From: a virus
Direction: 5' to 3' (one strand)
Virus record (IMG/VR): IMGVR_UViG_3300014913_000013
Location: 1-61,847 of that record
DNA: 61,847 nt
Positions 31,888 through 38,699 of this stretch are shown one piece after another; the first letter of the stretch is position 1; every line of letters begins with the position of its first letter. Below the pieces are notes generated by a model that saw nothing but the letters and a program-made list of their open reading frames with translations, was not told where the DNA came from and made no database searches. The position numbers were made by a program, and so were the translations under genes.

Positions 31888-31926
31888 TTGACAGGTTAAT
31901 AAAAATATAGTATATATACCATTAAT
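31888..31926 (+). promoter_or_regulatory. Sigma70-like promoter for the RNA cassette array
   Basis: TTGACA at 31888, 17-base spacer and TATATA at 31911. Transcription would start about 10-20 bases before the first RNA unit. Confidence 0.8.
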
Positions 31927-31935
31927 AAATGAAAA

Positions 31936-31991
31936 GGGCATAAACGGTTCCTTAAAAAATATACTTTAGATATATAAAATACCGTTCGCCC
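31936..31991 (+). ncRNA. Covarying stem cassette, unit 1
   Basis: GGGC (31936-31939) pairs with GCCC (31988-31991). ATA opposes a single C. Then AACGGT pairs with ACCGTT. TCCTTA follows the 5' strand. The apex is a hairpin ATATA-CTTTAGA-TATAT. Confidence 0.65.
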
Positions 31992-31998
31992 ATATAAC

Positions 31999-32118
31999 AG
32001 GGGTGTAGCTCAGTCAGGGAGAGCGCCGTTATATACTTCTGGCCTTACAGCAAAAGGAGTTCCTTTTAATAGCTTTGGGAGCCGGAGGTCGCTGGTTCGA
32101 ATCCAGCCGCCCCTGCCA
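31999..32118 (+). tRNA. tRNA-Val(UAC)-like gene with insertions
   Basis: The acceptor AGGGGTG/CGCCCCT, D-arm GCTC/GAGC, T-arm GCTGG-TTCGAAT-CCAGC and encoded CCA are all intact. The anticodon region is 66 bases, not 23. CTGGC/GCCGG can form the anticodon stem with CTTACAG (anticodon TAC) beginning the loop. About 30 extra bases, including an AAAAGG-AGTT-CCTTTT hairpin, sit after it and 14 extra bases before. It could be a tRNA with an unusual intron or a disrupted gene. Confidence 0.5.
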
Positions 32119-32129
32119 GTAGTTTGATA

Positions 32130-32245
32130 GGCATAGATGGTTCCTTAACTATCTAGAAGGTAGCTCAATGGTTAGAGCAATCTGGTCTATGCCAGATGGT
32201 TGTAGGTTCAAATCCTACCCTTCTAACCAGCGTATACCATCCGCC
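32130..32245 (+). ncRNA. Covarying stem cassette, unit 2 (encloses a tRNA)
   Basis: GGC (32130-32132) pairs with GCC (32243-32245). ATA opposes C. GATGGT pairs with ACCATC, and TCCTTA follows. Here the apical insert is a complete tRNA-like gene (32154-32229). Confidence 0.65.
32154..32229 (+). tRNA. tRNA-like gene, apparent anticodon CUA, abnormal loop
   Basis: The acceptor TAGAAGG/CCTTCTA, D-stem GCTC/GAGC, T-arm GTAGG-TTCAAAT-CCTAC and ACCA end are canonical, 76 bases. The anticodon arm pairs ATCTGG with CCAGAT, leaving only TCTATG as loop, so T is followed by CTA. Loop size (6 or 8, not 7) and T at 37 are abnormal. An amber-reading or non-decoding role is possible. RecA and other genes here end in TAG, arguing against wholesale recoding. 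Confidence 0.55.
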
Positions 32246-32324
32246 TTATTTATTACTGTTTCTTACTTGGTAGTATATTGTGACTGGTTAGACTACTTGA
32301 AATTAAGTACAAAAGCTAAACTTA
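32246..32324 (+). other. Spacer between cassette units 2 and 3
   Basis: AT-rich; begins with TTATTTATTA, which also follows unit 3. CTTACTTGGTAGTATATTGTG contains no clear tRNA or stem. Confidence 0.3.
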
Positions 32325-32377
32325 GGCATAGGTGGTTCCTTATTAGGTAGTCCTATAACCTAAAAATACCATCCGCC
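32325..32377 (+). ncRNA. Covarying stem cassette, unit 3
   Basis: GGC/GCC, ATA opposite C, GGTGGT paired with ACCATC (one G-U), TCCTTA. The apical hairpin is TTAGGT with ACCTAA. Confidence 0.65.
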
Positions 32378-32389
32378 TTATTTATTAAC

Positions 32390-32465
32390 GGCATAAGCGG
32401 TTCCTTATTAATCCCTAAAAAGGATACGTGGTGGCTACCCATGCCCCATGTTAATACCGCTCGCC
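32390..32465 (+). ncRNA. Covarying stem cassette, unit 4
   Basis: GGC/GCC, ATA opposite C, AGCGGT paired perfectly with ACCGCT, TCCTTA. The apical insert is closed by ATTAA/TTAAT and contains ATCC/GGAT and GGT/ACC mini-hairpins. It lies 20 bases before the next start codon. Confidence 0.65.
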
Positions 32466-32485: not shown

Positions 32486-34399
32486 ATGAATAAAGAAGTT
32501 GTACGTGCATCATTGCGGTTATTTAATGCTGTACAGATCAAAGAAGATGCCATAAAGGATGAAAAAATAAATGATACTTTGCTAGAAAGAACTGTGCCTA
32601 ATGGGTACATACTTAATCCCTACATATTTGCCACTACTGAATTACTAAATATTATAGAGGATGTAGTTGGAATATCTGGTGAAAAAGCCAACTCTTCTTT
32701 TCATAAATCATGGGCTGTTGTACGTGATTCTAGCATGGAAGAATTAGTCATGCATCAAATTGTACACTACATAACTACCTATGGATTTGAGGCCCTTGGT
32801 ATTTATAATGAATCTACTGTATACATCCCTAATGAAAAATTAGAATTACCTGAACTACGTGATGGTGGAATTCCTTTGACTGTTATCAAAGCATTTACTG
32901 GGAATGACATGATAACATCAATAATAAAATTGGGGTCTTCTGGTATTGCTTTACATGAAGAAATACTAGATGATATTATGACTATCATCGAGCATAATAA
33001 GTGGGATAGCAAATATTTTATAAATGATATCCAAAACAGGGAACTTAAAACACGCCTGCTTGATTTTTATGGTGTGGTTCCATCTGAACCTGTAGAATTT
33101 TTACGTCATGTTATCAGCAAGCTCACAGATGAATCATTGTTAATTAAGAACTTTGCATTAATAGAGAAAATAAAAGCTTCTAATGGTAAATTCTGTGATG
33201 AACTTATGAAACAGGCTCCGCCTGATCTTGCATCAATATTCTTGAGGTACAAACCTATATTTCTAGCCTTACGTTCTATATCCAAAAACAAAGGGGTATT
33301 TAATAAACTACGAAGGCAGGCTGTTACTATGCACAAGCCTCTGCCTGAAGATTACCTTAATAATGTCACAGGTAGGTTGAAAGAGGGCACATTAGACATT
33401 AAAAAACTGCAAGATAAACTAGAAAAGGCCCCTATATTTAGGAAGATACGCCTTGCTTATGCTTTACGTCATAGAATGGAAGTACAGAGTACTTCAGAAT
33501 CTATTGTGTATCAAGTACGTAATGGTAAAGGATGGTCTACTACTTTTAATTGGGGAGTACCTAAACAAAAGACTGATGAAGTATTTAGAGCGGTGATGTC
33601 CTCTATAATGCTAGATATCAGCAAAAATGTTAAAGATAAAATTATCTATATACCTGAAGGGGTGTACTACTCAATACCGGCTACTGAGAAACAGTTTACT
33701 GGAAATATACCTTCTGGTAGTTATGTATCTGTGCCTGAAGATTTAGTAGTTGGAGTGCAGTGGAAGAATCAGAATGGATATAGAGTAGATTTGGATCTAG
33801 CTTCTATAAGTGTAGAAGGTAAAATAGGGTGGGACAGTTCTTATCGCAGTGTCTCACATAATGTGCTATTTTCTGGGGATGTCACAGATGCACGTGGTAG
33901 AAATGGTGCCTCAGAATTATTTTACTTTTCAGGTTCTAAACCGTACAGCCCTATGCTGATTACTTTGAATTACTATAATTTTGATTCAGATGTGCCTGTA
34001 CCTACTAAATTATTTGCCGCATCAGAAAGAATAAGCAATATGAAAAGAAACTATATGGTGGATGTTAATAACATAGTTTTTTCTTCATTAATAACTGTAA
34101 ACAAGAAGCAAAATTTCTTGGGTTTATACATGCACAATGAAGGTGAAAACAGATTTTACTTTTATCATACCTCTATTGGTGGGGGTATATCTTCTAGGTA
34201 TGACAGTAACACTATAAGAACCCGTGAGTTCTTAGAGACAAAAATGGCATCTCCTATAATTCTTAACGAAGTATTAGAATCAGCAGGGGCTATAGTAATC
34301 ACTGATAAAAAGGAGATATTAGAGGATAACTATATTGACTTATCTCCAGAGAATATTGACAAAAATAGTTTTATAGATATATTGGTAGGGGAAATGTAA
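32486..34399 (+). CDS. Large protein with C-terminal TerD-like domain (637 aa)
   Basis: The start at 32486 follows TAGGAG. Residues about 1-400 are an alpha-helical solenoid-like region. Near residues 430-510, VDLDLASISVEGKIGW and then VLFSGDVTDARGRNGASEL follow the TerD-type pattern (DLDLS, GxIGW, SGDxTxA...GAxE) also seen at the end of large bacterial proteins linked to tellurite-type stress systems. Its function in a phage is unknown. It begins a five-gene coupled run ending in the radical SAM gene. Confidence 0.5.
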   Translation: MNKEVVRASLRLFNAVQIKEDAIKDEKINDTLLERTVPNGYILNPYIFATTELLNIIEDVVGISGEKANSSFHKSWAVVRDSSMEELVMHQIVHYITTYGFEALGIYNESTVYIPNEKLELPELRDGGIPLTVIKAFTGNDMITSIIKLGSSGIALHEEILDDIMTIIEHNKWDSKYFINDIQNRELKTRLLDFYGVVPSEPVEFLRHVISKLTDESLLIKNFALIEKIKASNGKFCDELMKQAPPDLASIFLRYKPIFLALRSISKNKGVFNKLRRQAVTMHKPLPEDYLNNVTGRLKEGTLDIKKLQDKLEKAPIFRKIRLAYALRHRMEVQSTSESIVYQVRNGKGWSTTFNWGVPKQKTDEVFRAVMSSIMLDISKNVKDKIIYIPEGVYYSIPATEKQFTGNIPSGSYVSVPEDLVVGVQWKNQNGYRVDLDLASISVEGKIGWDSSYRSVSHNVLFSGDVTDARGRNGASELFYFSGSKPYSPMLITLNYYNFDSDVPVPTKLFAASERISNMKRNYMVDVNNIVFSSLITVNKKQNFLGLYMHNEGENRFYFYHTSIGGGISSRYDSNTIRTREFLETKMASPIILNEVLESAGAIVITDKKEILEDNYIDLSPENIDKNSFIDILVGEM

Positions 34400-35333: not shown

Positions 35334-38300
35334 ATGAAAAAATTACCTGATACTTTACCCTCATACTACAGCCCAAGAATTTCAAGTGAATTACCTGATT
35401 GTTCAAGCCCACTAACTTTTGATACGTACAGCAGATGCTCAATGCGCTGCCAATATTGCGTACCTAAAGGTTCTGGAATAACAATGGCAGACGGCACTAT
35501 CAAAAAAGTAGAGGAAGTAATAGTTGGCGATATTCTTCTTGGGTACAATGAAAAAACCAAGAAACCGGAAGCCACTGTAGTAAAACAATGTATGAAACAT
35601 ACAGAAAGTATGTATGCAACATTCGTCTTTTCTGGTAATGGGGGTTCTTTTAGCACCACATTAAACCACCCTATTTTTACAAAGGAACAAGGTTGGATTG
35701 ATGCTAGATACGTAAAAAAGGGTATGCATGTACTACGGCATAATAAATTCGCACCTGAAATTACAGAATCTAGGTTTATTGAATTAATCTTTCATAAAAA
35801 AGTACCAAAAGGTGCTTTTTCTGAGAATAAACAATTATACCCTATATGGAACCAAATGGTGCAAAGATGCCATAATCCAAATGCCCATAATTTTAAATAT
35901 TATGGACTACGTGGTGTACAAGTTTGTAAAGAATGGAGATATGACCCCAGACCTTTTTATAAATGGGCTGAAAAACAAGGGTACAGAAAAAGATTAGAAT
36001 TAGATCGTATAAGTACTAATGGTGATTATACGCCATCTAATTGTAGGTGGGTGACACATAAAGAAAATTCATCTAATAGAAATAAGAATGGTAAGGATAA
36101 TAAAACTGGATATACTGGTATATACCAAAAAAACGGCAGATTTTACATTAGAAAACATGGCAAAAATAGGTCGTATACACTTCCAGAACAAGCAGCCATA
36201 TTGTACGATAGAAAAGTAAAACCTGTTAATTTTGAAAGGATCCCATTTGCTGAATTTAGATGGGAGAAAATTAAATATGTAAGAACACATTATAAAACAA
36301 TACAAGTACATAATTTCGAGTGCTGGCCTAATAATGATTATTGTACACAAAATAAGCGCAACACAAGAAAGTTTGAATTACATCATGGAGTTGTAGTGTC
36401 TAATTGTTTCTCACACTCTCAAAAGGATGTGAATCCTGGCACTAAAGATGCCCCATTACAGAGTGTAGATGTAGATAAACTATTTAAAATGATTGATGGT
36501 ACTTCTAAAACCAAAGAAGCTCAGTTATTTTATAAGTATTTCTTTAAGGATAAATTTCTATTCCATTGGGGTGGGTTAGCAGATAGTTTTTGTCACTATG
36601 AAAGAAAGTATGGCACTTCTTACGAAATATTAAAGGGTTTATTAGAAAGAAAGTACCCACTCATGTTCAGTTCTAAAGGCCCTGCTATAACTGATGATAA
36701 ATATATTCAGTTATTTGAGCAGTACGCTTATCAGAATACTGTTGCATTCCAATTCAGCATAGTAACAGCAGATGACAGTTTAGCAAAAAAAGTAGAACCA
36801 GGAGTACCCAGTCCCACAGAACGATTAGAATACATGAAGATGCTTAGTGATATGGGGTACTGGTGTTTAGATAAGGATACAGAGATTTTCCATAAAACTG
36901 AAAATTCTCCATATGTTAGGAAATCTACACTACAACGTGTATATAAAACTGGAAATACTATACAAGTGAACTGTAATGGGAAATGGAAAGAAGCGTACCC
37001 CATGCGTATAGAATATAGTGGTTATTGGTATAAAGTAACACTGCGCAATGGTGCTGAAATAATACAAATAGACAAGCACGAGAATTTCACAGACAGTGGC
37101 ATTAAAAAAGGGGAAAACCTCAAAGTTGGTGACAGATTATTAGTATCTACAAAACCTATGAATTGGGATTGCTCCAGGGGTACATTTGATCTTGGAAGAT
37201 TTGTGGGTTTGTGGGTAGCAGAAGGGTGTTACATAGGAAGTAAACAGGGCTTTAAATTTACCTATGGCACACACGAGGAAGAATACATACAGTTCACCAG
37301 ACAGTTTGCAGAGAAATTAGGAGGGGCTGTCCACATTCAGCATAATGGTAGTTGGACAGATGTGATTGTGTATTCCAATTATATAAAAACATTGCTGGAC
37401 TCTTTTATTATTAGAGGACGTACCTGTGATACTATAACACTAGATGATGTATGTCATTCAATGTCCAAAGATTTTAAAATAGGACTGCTTGCTGGATGGG
37501 AGGAAGGAGACGGGAATGATAAACGCCAGATTGGATCAACATCTATACAACTTATAAAGGATATGTTTGTCCTTGCTAATTCTATAGGAGTTAAGTGTAG
37601 TATGCCCTCTCCCACTATATTGCAGGTGTGTGATATACTTACTAAGAATGCCAAAGTCTACAAATTTAACCCTAATACAAGCCCATACAGTAGAAAAATG
37701 TACTCCGAAGTGGTATCTATAGAAAAGTACAAACGCCCAAGAATAAAATATGCCTACTGCTTAGAAGTCCCAGAAGGGAATTCCTTTGAGCTAACCAATG
37801 GAATAGTAACGCATAACTGCGTGCTGCGACTACGCCCATTCATTATAGGTGTTACAGATGAAACCCTGCCAGAGCTATTACAAAAAGCGTATGAATCTGG
37901 TGCAAAGGCTATAAGCACAGAATTCTACGCATTAGATCATAGGTGTGTTGGTAGTATGAGAAAAGCTACCAACAGAATGGGAGAATTGATGGGCATAAAG
38001 GACATATTTACGTATTTCACAAAGCTCTCACCAAAAGAACGTGGTGGGTATAATAGATTAAATAGGCTCATAAAGGAACCCTACGTAAAATATATGTATA
38101 CATTTTGCCAAGAGCACGATATGGTATTTGCATGTAGTGACCCAGATTACAAAGAACTATGTTCAGGCACAGCTAATTGCTGTGGACTCCCACCAAAAGG
38201 GTACCACCCAACCAGAGATTTGAATAACTGGTCATCTAATCAACTTACCAGTTACGTTATGGAAGCCAGGATAGATTATCACAAAACTGGTAAGTTAAGA

Positions 38301-38699
38301 ATATTTAAATTTGATGAAGTGTACGGCACACCTGATTGGATATTTGATGATATAGCATTAAGCCATCAAGATATAGGGTGTACTAAATATCCATACGCTA
38401 TGCGTAAACAATTAACACTAAAACATTTGTTACAAGAAAAATGGAACAACCTTAAATCATATGCTAATCCACGTAATTATTTACATGGTAAAATAGTGCC
38501 AATAGGTGTAGATAATTCTGATAATATGTTATATAGATATAATCCAAGTGCATATGAAGAAGTGTGGACAAATGATGGTGTAGACTTGTCGTGGGATTGG
38601 AGAGATACACACACAAAATATTACGATATAAATATGTGGGGCAATGATAATATAAAATTGGATAATTGTGAGGAGTGTGCCAATGATACGAGAATTTAA
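35334..38699 (+). CDS. Radical SAM protein with two inteins (1121 aa precursor)
   Basis: Exteins are residues 1-41, 358-510 and 829-1121, giving a 487-aa mature protein. The cluster motif is CSMRCQY plus the C-extein Cys (CxxxCxxC), so it is complete only after intein 1 is spliced. Downstream, FSIVTADDSLAKKVEPGVPS then PTERLEYMKML matches the spore-photoproduct-lyase/COG1533-like radical SAM group (SI...D......EPG.PSP..RL). Extra Cys in the C-terminus may bind another cluster. The substrate is unknown; context with a glycosyltransferase and another radical SAM protein suggests nucleobase chemistry. Confidence 0.8.
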   Translation: MKKLPDTLPSYYSPRISSELPDCSSPLTFDTYSRCSMRCQYCVPKGSGITMADGTIKKVEEVIVGDILLGYNEKTKKPEATVVKQCMKHTESMYATFVFSGNGGSFSTTLNHPIFTKEQGWIDARYVKKGMHVLRHNKFAPEITESRFIELIFHKKVPKGAFSENKQLYPIWNQMVQRCHNPNAHNFKYYGLRGVQVCKEWRYDPRPFYKWAEKQGYRKRLELDRISTNGDYTPSNCRWVTHKENSSNRNKNGKDNKTGYTGIYQKNGRFYIRKHGKNRSYTLPEQAAILYDRKVKPVNFERIPFAEFRWEKIKYVRTHYKTIQVHNFECWPNNDYCTQNKRNTRKFELHHGVVVSNCFSHSQKDVNPGTKDAPLQSVDVDKLFKMIDGTSKTKEAQLFYKYFFKDKFLFHWGGLADSFCHYERKYGTSYEILKGLLERKYPLMFSSKGPAITDDKYIQLFEQYAYQNTVAFQFSIVTADDSLAKKVEPGVPSPTERLEYMKMLSDMGYWCLDKDTEIFHKTENSPYVRKSTLQRVYKTGNTIQVNCNGKWKEAYPMRIEYSGYWYKVTLRNGAEIIQIDKHENFTDSGIKKGENLKVGDRLLVSTKPMNWDCSRGTFDLGRFVGLWVAEGCYIGSKQGFKFTYGTHEEEYIQFTRQFAEKLGGAVHIQHNGSWTDVIVYSNYIKTLLDSFIIRGRTCDTITLDDVCHSMSKDFKIGLLAGWEEGDGNDKRQIGSTSIQLIKDMFVLANSIGVKCSMPSPTILQVCDILTKNAKVYKFNPNTSPYSRKMYSEVVSIEKYKRPRIKYAYCLEVPEGNSFELTNGIVTHNCVLRLRPFIIGVTDETLPELLQKAYESGAKAISTEFYALDHRCVGSMRKATNRMGELMGIKDIFTYFTKLSPKERGGYNRLNRLIKEPYVKYMYTFCQEHDMVFACSDPDYKELCSGTANCCGLPPKGYHPTRDLNNWSSNQLTSYVMEARIDYHKTGKLRIFKFDEVYGTPDWIFDDIALSHQDIGCTKYPYAMRKQLTLKHLLQEKWNNLKSYANPRNYLHGKIVPIGVDNSDNMLYRYNPSAYEEVWTNDGVDLSWDWRDTHTKYYDINMWGNDNIKLDNCEECANDTRI
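35457..36404 (+). mobile_element. Intein 1 in the radical SAM gene (316 aa)
   Basis: It begins at Cys42 (CVPKGSGITMADGTIKKVEE, block A), has TLNHPIFT as block B, and ends HHGVVVSN with Cys +1. Between lies a nuclease domain with YGLRGVQVCKEW and LDRISTNGDYTPSNCRWVT, an HNH-type homing endonuclease pattern. It interrupts the protein at the third cluster cysteine. Confidence 0.85.
36864..37817 (+). mobile_element. Intein 2 in the radical SAM gene (318 aa)
   Basis: Starts CLDKDTEIFHKTE after GYW and ends SFELTNGIVTHN before Cys +1. GRFVGLWVAEGCYIG and FKIGLLAGWEEGDG are two LAGLIDADG helices, so the homing nuclease is of a different family from intein 1. Confidence 0.85.

Follow-up and report, generated by a model that had tools for sequence, protein, structure and literature searches.

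The window analysed here is the whole of a 61,847-b stretch of DNA from the IMG/VR record IMGVR_UViG_3300014913_000013, and it carries an array of RNA units directly upstream of a gene for a protein of 637 amino acid residues (Table 1). The sequence GGCATANNNGGTTCCTTA occurs in four exact copies on the plus strand (starting at 31937, 32130, 32325 and 32390) and nowhere else in the window without a mismatch, a number of matches that was attained in none of 100 shuffles. Downstream of each copy lies its own ACCNNNCGCC, the NNN of which is complementary to that copy; in units 1 to 4, the variable bases pair as AAC/GTT, GAT/ATC, GGT/ATC (with one G-U) and AGC/GCT, respectively. The plan of the units is GNC-A(T/A)A-NNNNGT-TCCT ... 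ACNNNN-C-GNC, and units 1, 3 and 4, when folded for minimum free energy, gave exactly (((...((((((...)))))).))). The initial annotation of this DNA had described a four-copy array with bases covarying copy by copy, inserts that differ completely, a whole tRNA inside unit 2 and no known RNA family. All of these points were borne out: the inserts are a short A/T-rich sequence, a whole tRNA-like sequence, a hairpin and a branched structure, and the element strands in the window had no match in Rfam. It had also given the array its own promoter. A promoter-like sequence is indeed visible by eye upstream of unit 1, but a consensus scan neither listed this site nor exceeded the shuffles, and we therefore treat it as a resemblance only.

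Table 1. Positions of the array, the interrupted tRNA gene and the neighbouring gene in the window
Feature	Position	Strand	Remarks
Possible promoter, TTGACA-17 nt-TATATA	31888-31916	+	upstream of the array; recognised by eye
Unit 1	31937-31990	+	5' strand 31937-31954, short A/T-rich insert, 3' strand 31981-31990
tRNA-Pro-like gene with permuted element in the anticodon arm	31999-32118	+	Rfam tRNA model, 45.9 bits, with a gap in the arm
Unit 2	32130-32245	+	5' strand 32130-32147, whole tRNA-like insert 32154-32229, 3' strand 32236-32245
Unit 3	32325-32377	+	5' strand 32325-32342, hairpin insert, 3' strand 32368-32377
Unit 4	32390-32465	+	5' strand 32390-32407, branched insert, 3' strand 32456-32465; MFE fold z -4.2
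Neighbouring gene, 637 aa	32486-34399	+	N-terminal helical repeat, C-terminal TerD fold (predicted); start 20 nt past the array

Between units 1 and 2 lies a tRNA-Pro-like gene, which was overlooked in the initial annotation. In the anticodon arm of this gene, 54 nt are skipped by the Rfam tRNA model, and they contain both strands of the element in permuted order, with ACTTCTGGCC (32035-32044) followed by a short TTAC loop and AGCAAAAGGAGTTCCTTT (32049-32066). The array therefore has five members. By enumeration of possible excisions, removal of 43 nt from this gene would leave a perfect CCGGC-TTTGGGA-GCCGG arm, as in a textbook tRNA-Pro. The tRNA-like insert of unit 2 appears unlikely to take part in normal decoding, because its anticodon loop has 6 or 8 nt. 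Besides this fifth, tRNA-inserted member, two other features of the array had escaped the first reading, namely the link to the neighbouring gene and the permuted tRNAs in related arrays, both of which are described below.

Beyond the window, the element was present in more than 20 phage contigs, in most cases no more than 1.5 kb from a gene homologous to that at 32486-34399, and its carriers are many unrelated large phages. A motif scan of viral contigs yielded mostly chance matches, together with arrays upstream of homologues of the window gene in L013 and L015 (L numbers are our locus labels), and two gapped patterns led to the additional phages L142/L145, L194 and L238. Homologues of the window protein were found in the cyanophages S-CRM01 and S-CBWM1 and in the gut phage Phass-1, and elements were present at these loci too. 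The window protein as a lone query recovered no relatives in viral contigs; an alignment of eight sequences as the query gave 37 viral loci, some of which are near-duplicates. Elements were present in 32 of these 37 protein-found loci, and a control scan of the reversed sequences gave one match in total. Among the other five protein-found loci, L307 has a variant element, in which TCTCGA replaces TCCT; the 5' flank of L293 is missing, and no element was recognisable in L305, L306 and L312. Conversely, contigs found by the DNA pattern alone encode the protein (for example, L325, L326, L327, L331 and L096, the last a contig of a Bacteroidales MAG); two fragments found in this way, L324 and L328, do not encode it. 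Matches to a 15-base motif in bacterial genomes were mostly without the element and without the gene, and the exact element was not found in Campylobacter phage CP21, Lactobacillus phage LpeD or the two scanned stretches of phage P100. Searches in both directions show that the element and the gene are linked.

The distance from the end of the last unit to the start codon is a few dozen bases in most loci (20 nt in the window), as might be expected if the stems served as leader elements of the downstream gene, to which its product would bind on the mRNA so as to regulate its own production. We consider such autoregulation decidedly unlikely. Arrays also lie downstream of the gene in L314, L315, L299 and L319, which makes a purely cis-regulatory role less likely, and the many copies, the differing cargoes and the tRNA-like inserts would be superfluous for it.

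The covariation of the stems was assessed without selection for pairing. In 26 loci, all GTTCCT sequences up to 1.5 kb from the gene were taken (94 sites), and the closest AC....CG on the downstream side was assigned as the partner (76 sites). Full pairing of the four inner positions was seen at 64 of the 76 sites, compared with a mean of 7.3 and a maximum of 16 when partners were dealt at random (2,000 trials), and the inner stems comprised 41 distinct pairs. The outer two pairs, which were unselected too, were complete in 60 of these 64 sites (shuffled mean, 38; maximum, 46). For a count of individual pairs, 57 distinct units were drawn from the paired sites, so the percentage paired in this set is biased upward; here, 135 cells had changed on both sides against 34 after shuffling, and the covariation score was 0.706 against 0.230, a signal that was lost when the partner was slid. 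The covariation is decisive. The initial annotation had inferred a real RNA helix from the four copies and had named a search for further covarying homologues as the check; the helix is supported, and homologous arrays exist in many viral contigs.

The resulting structure, which we call the handle, has an outer stem of 3 bp and an inner stem of 6 bp, the latter ending in G-U/A-C. Between the stems is a 3:1 internal loop, in which AWA faces C, and a conserved, single-stranded UCCU follows the inner stem on the 5' side. The C-G pair closing the outer stem, the AWA opposite C, the G-U/A-C end of the inner stem and the following UCCU are all near-constant; GU, UCCU, AC and CG belonged to the selection of sites, and the AWA loop did not. 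No group I or II intron or known small ribozyme was matched at the Rfam gathering score, the scanned regions giving tRNA and tmRNA families only, and the element is an RNA family absent from Rfam. We discarded a likeness between UCCUUA and the 3' end of 16S rRNA because relatives carry UCCUAU, UCCUCC or UCCUGT. As hairpin-forming ends are repeated around unrelated inserts, the units might instead act as DNA, in the manner of recombination or transposition cassettes. This is very improbable in our judgement: the copies pair only with their own partners and neighbouring stems differ, G-U pairs are tolerated, and, at the scanned loci, the elements and the gene are on one strand.

The neighbouring protein belongs to a family that was previously without annotation and has no significant match in Pfam or PHROGs. 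Its structure was predicted with AlphaFold2 on 26 homologues (mean pLDDT, 89). In the predicted model, residues from about 408 to 583 form a TerD fold (3ibz; Z 13.2, 150 residues, rmsd 3.1); six of the top rows for this C-terminal part were TerD or TerD-like (Z 10.3-13.2), with no sequence match in Pfam. The N-terminal part is predicted to be a helical repeat. The Ro60 entries 2nvo, 9nf8 and 9l5y ranked within the first 13 rows for this part, but their Z values near 5 are at background for helical repeats. A Foldseek comparison with the PDB returned no match with E under 0.001. Membership of the TROVE family (PF05731) had no support from sequence: there was no Pfam match, and hhalign against three TROVE proteins gave values under 1%. 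Because of this background Z value and the empty TROVE profile comparison, kinship with Ro60 is a lead, not a result.

The inserts range from 14 to 95 nt, and 58 of 64 are not tRNA-like, being short and of modest structure only. Others show that tRNA-like sequences are among the cargoes. Whole tRNA bodies are joined through their acceptor end and have the anticodon arm closed by GCAA (L324), GAAA (L328) or GTT (L301); to judge from these closures, which are too short or tetraloops, and from the 6- or 8-nt loop in the window, such bodies are unlikely to decode. A minority of units contain circularly permuted tRNAs with the T arm first, in S-CRM01 (L296:4619), L288:4728 and L297:7573, and T-arm-like inserts are present in L297 and L292. 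In the opposite arrangement, the element lies within the anticodon arm of a tRNA in about eleven cases (the window, L286, L283, L284, L287, L295, L298, L325, L326, L327 and L331), and these interrupted tRNAs are mostly in or beside arrays, not spread across tRNA clusters. In six of ten interrupted tRNAs (the window, L283, L286, L287, L298 and L327), GGA is located directly 5' of the 3' strand of the anticodon stem, where it is able to pair with the UCC of the element (UCCUAA/UUAGGA in L298 and UCCUAU/AUAGGA in L327). At about 3980-4050 of L286, and at the same place in L013, a tRNA 5' half is continuous with the 3'-strand-like ATTACCCTCCGCC; no tRNA 3' half is nearby in L286, suggesting a split or degenerate tRNA.

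The main alternative, to which the interrupted tRNAs lend themselves, is that the element works as a tRNA-type intron of very small size, which would splice itself or depend on a protein and would be removed from the anticodon arm; on balance we find this rather unlikely. In the array units, the two halves are permuted, so that splicing would circularise the insert and mature permuted tRNA genes, a proposal that seems to us similarly doubtful. Permuted tRNA genes that yield mature tRNAs occur in some algae and archaea. The full form of the alternative, an intron-like phage RNA of about 40 nt that is spliced from anticodon arms, gives circular RNAs and mature tRNAs from its permuted copies and has the helical-repeat/TerD protein as its splicing partner, is likewise not what we would expect. 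In its favour are the number of tRNAs with the element in this arm and the canonical-looking arms produced by excision in the window (Pro UGG), L283 (Arg ACG), L284 (Gln CUG), L287 (Gln UUG) and others. tRNA introns of an unexplained type are also on record in Lak megaphages (PMC6784885). With these recorded introns and with the tRNA introns and permuted tRNA genes of archaea and algae, it shares the interruption of the anticodon arm and the reversed tRNA halves; it differs from archaeal and eukaryal introns in lacking a bulge-helix-bulge, and has instead the 3:1 loop between the 3-bp and 6-bp stems, and UCCU.

We gave the canonical anticodon loops little weight as proof of splicing, since A/T-rich flanks allow many excisions and make a fitting one likely by chance, and since the UCC of the element is an alternative pairing partner for the exon GGA. 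A canonical arm was not obtained in L295, L326 and L327, and the implied splice positions vary. Whole-tRNA cargoes with tetraloops would be senseless as exons of decoding tRNAs, and the confinement of most interrupted tRNAs to arrays or their vicinity also speaks against splicing. RNA ligase families scored above the cut-off in 9 of 22 records, which would suit splicing, whereas the complete genomes of S-CRM01 and S-CBWM1 have no RNA ligase of the three families searched; overall, ligase presence or absence in the 22 records did not discriminate between the readings.

Bacterial Y RNAs present modules on Ro60. The units resemble the Y RNA family YrlA (RF02553) in their end-to-end stem with an asymmetric internal loop, inner stem, single-stranded stretch on the 5' side and variable module on top, and in the permuted tRNA-like body of some units (L296, L288 and L297). 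Two of these bodies were recognised by the YrlA model, that of L296 over the whole unit (35.9 bits, E 2.7e-6) and that of L288 over the tRNA-like part (36.8 bits, E 4.8e-7). Both scores are below the gathering cut-off of 69, the window units had no YrlA match, and the phage units differ from YrlA in their stem sequence and in their tandem multi-unit arrays. As with Ro60/Rsr, a gene for a helical-repeat protein adjoins the RNA units; the phage protein differs from Ro60 in having TerD, not vWA, at its C-terminus and in showing no detectable sequence similarity to TROVE.

A parallel system was found in Listeria phage P100 (NC_007610, about 123,170-123,440, minus strand, L352), where three RNA units lie directly upstream of gp165. 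These units share ACAGCAAWTACTA in covarying 7-bp stems (AGGAATC/GATTCCT, AGAGAGC/GCTCTCT and AGGAAGC/GCTTCCT) and have variable inserts, and gp165 is a DUF2828/DUF7788 protein with a vWA-like signature. In the related phage CKA15, HHpred ties the RNA-binding protein to Rsr (Ro60), the protein was detected in purified virions, and extremely abundant RNAs, suggested by the authors to be Y RNAs, are made within 2 kb upstream of the Rsr-like gene (PMC12282133). From size, neighbourhood and phage group, gp165 of P100 probably corresponds to CKA15_055. The likeness to CKA15/P100 comprises an array of covarying-stem units with a constant 5' motif and differing inserts, located directly upstream of an RNA-binding, Ro60-like protein and beside tRNA genes; the constant motif and the protein family are different, and the exact element of the window is absent from the stretches scanned. 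In Lactobacillus phage LpeD, two similarly built units (MF787246, about 132,710-132,895, minus strand, L350) lie upstream of a distant homologue of the window protein (hhalign 96.6%, E 5.5e-10); they have a constant TTACTTCTA, which differs from the motif of the window, and covarying inner stems AAAAGC/GCTTTT and ATACGC/GCGTAT; a single partner of this kind has an 8% chance in shuffles, and each is weak alone.

The P100/CKA15 parallel is our main reason for preferring a reading in which the array and the protein form a Y-RNA-like RNP; the protein would bind the stem as a handle, and the inserts would serve as effectors that can be exchanged for one another. We hold this reading to be somewhat probable. 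The covariation, the gene linkage, the tRNA bodies unlikely to decode, the permuted tRNAs with their YrlA matches and the LpeD array also count in its favour, as do, at background level, the three Ro60 entries among the fold matches. The array would be transcribed and processed into a set of small separate RNAs sharing one folded handle, and the helical-repeat/TerD protein would bind this handle. If the protein binds the common handle, each RNA would display its own cargo on the same protein, as Y RNAs do on Ro60. Since several cargoes are tRNA-like, the particle would engage host tRNA-binding enzymes, and might tether or decoy those of processing, decay, modification or tRNA-targeting defence. 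Against this reading, the tRNAs that bear the handle keep anticodon loops of real-looking sequence (UUUGGGA in the case of the window), and the role of a pure handle would not call for these; most inserts are not tRNA-like, and the low YrlA scores and the lack of a detectable sequence relation to TROVE/Ro60 also count against it.

In a limited search of the open-access literature, neither the element nor the protein was found to be described. The working likeness, that of a Y RNA with Ro60, is already known, and some of the defining marks of membership are lacking here. If the Y-RNA-like reading is correct, a widespread RNA-protein system of large phages (S-CRM01, S-CBWM1, Phass-1 and many uncultured ones) has been missing from Rfam, Pfam and PHROGs, in which one protein is served by a menu of RNA modules, tRNA mimics included, and Ro60-Y RNA biology would extend to modular arrays. 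Hypothetical genes that lie within the tRNA clusters of phages would also gain a testable function, and phage tRNAs that look odd or bear an 'intron' would gain a candidate explanation that can be checked in cultured phages.

Several other features were observed near the protein gene and elsewhere in the window. tmRNA genes of the permuted (two-piece) type lie near the protein gene in L276 (9463-9773) and L319 (8894-9260), and a one-piece tmRNA lies near it in Phass-1 (L282:9458-9896). The window has an ordinary cluster of 13 tRNA genes at 51406-54602, in which ARAGORN found no proline tRNA; apart from the interrupted tRNA of the array, no Pro-like tRNA was found in the window. At 35334-38699, a radical-SAM-like ORF carries two apparent intein-like insertions, as read from its translation.
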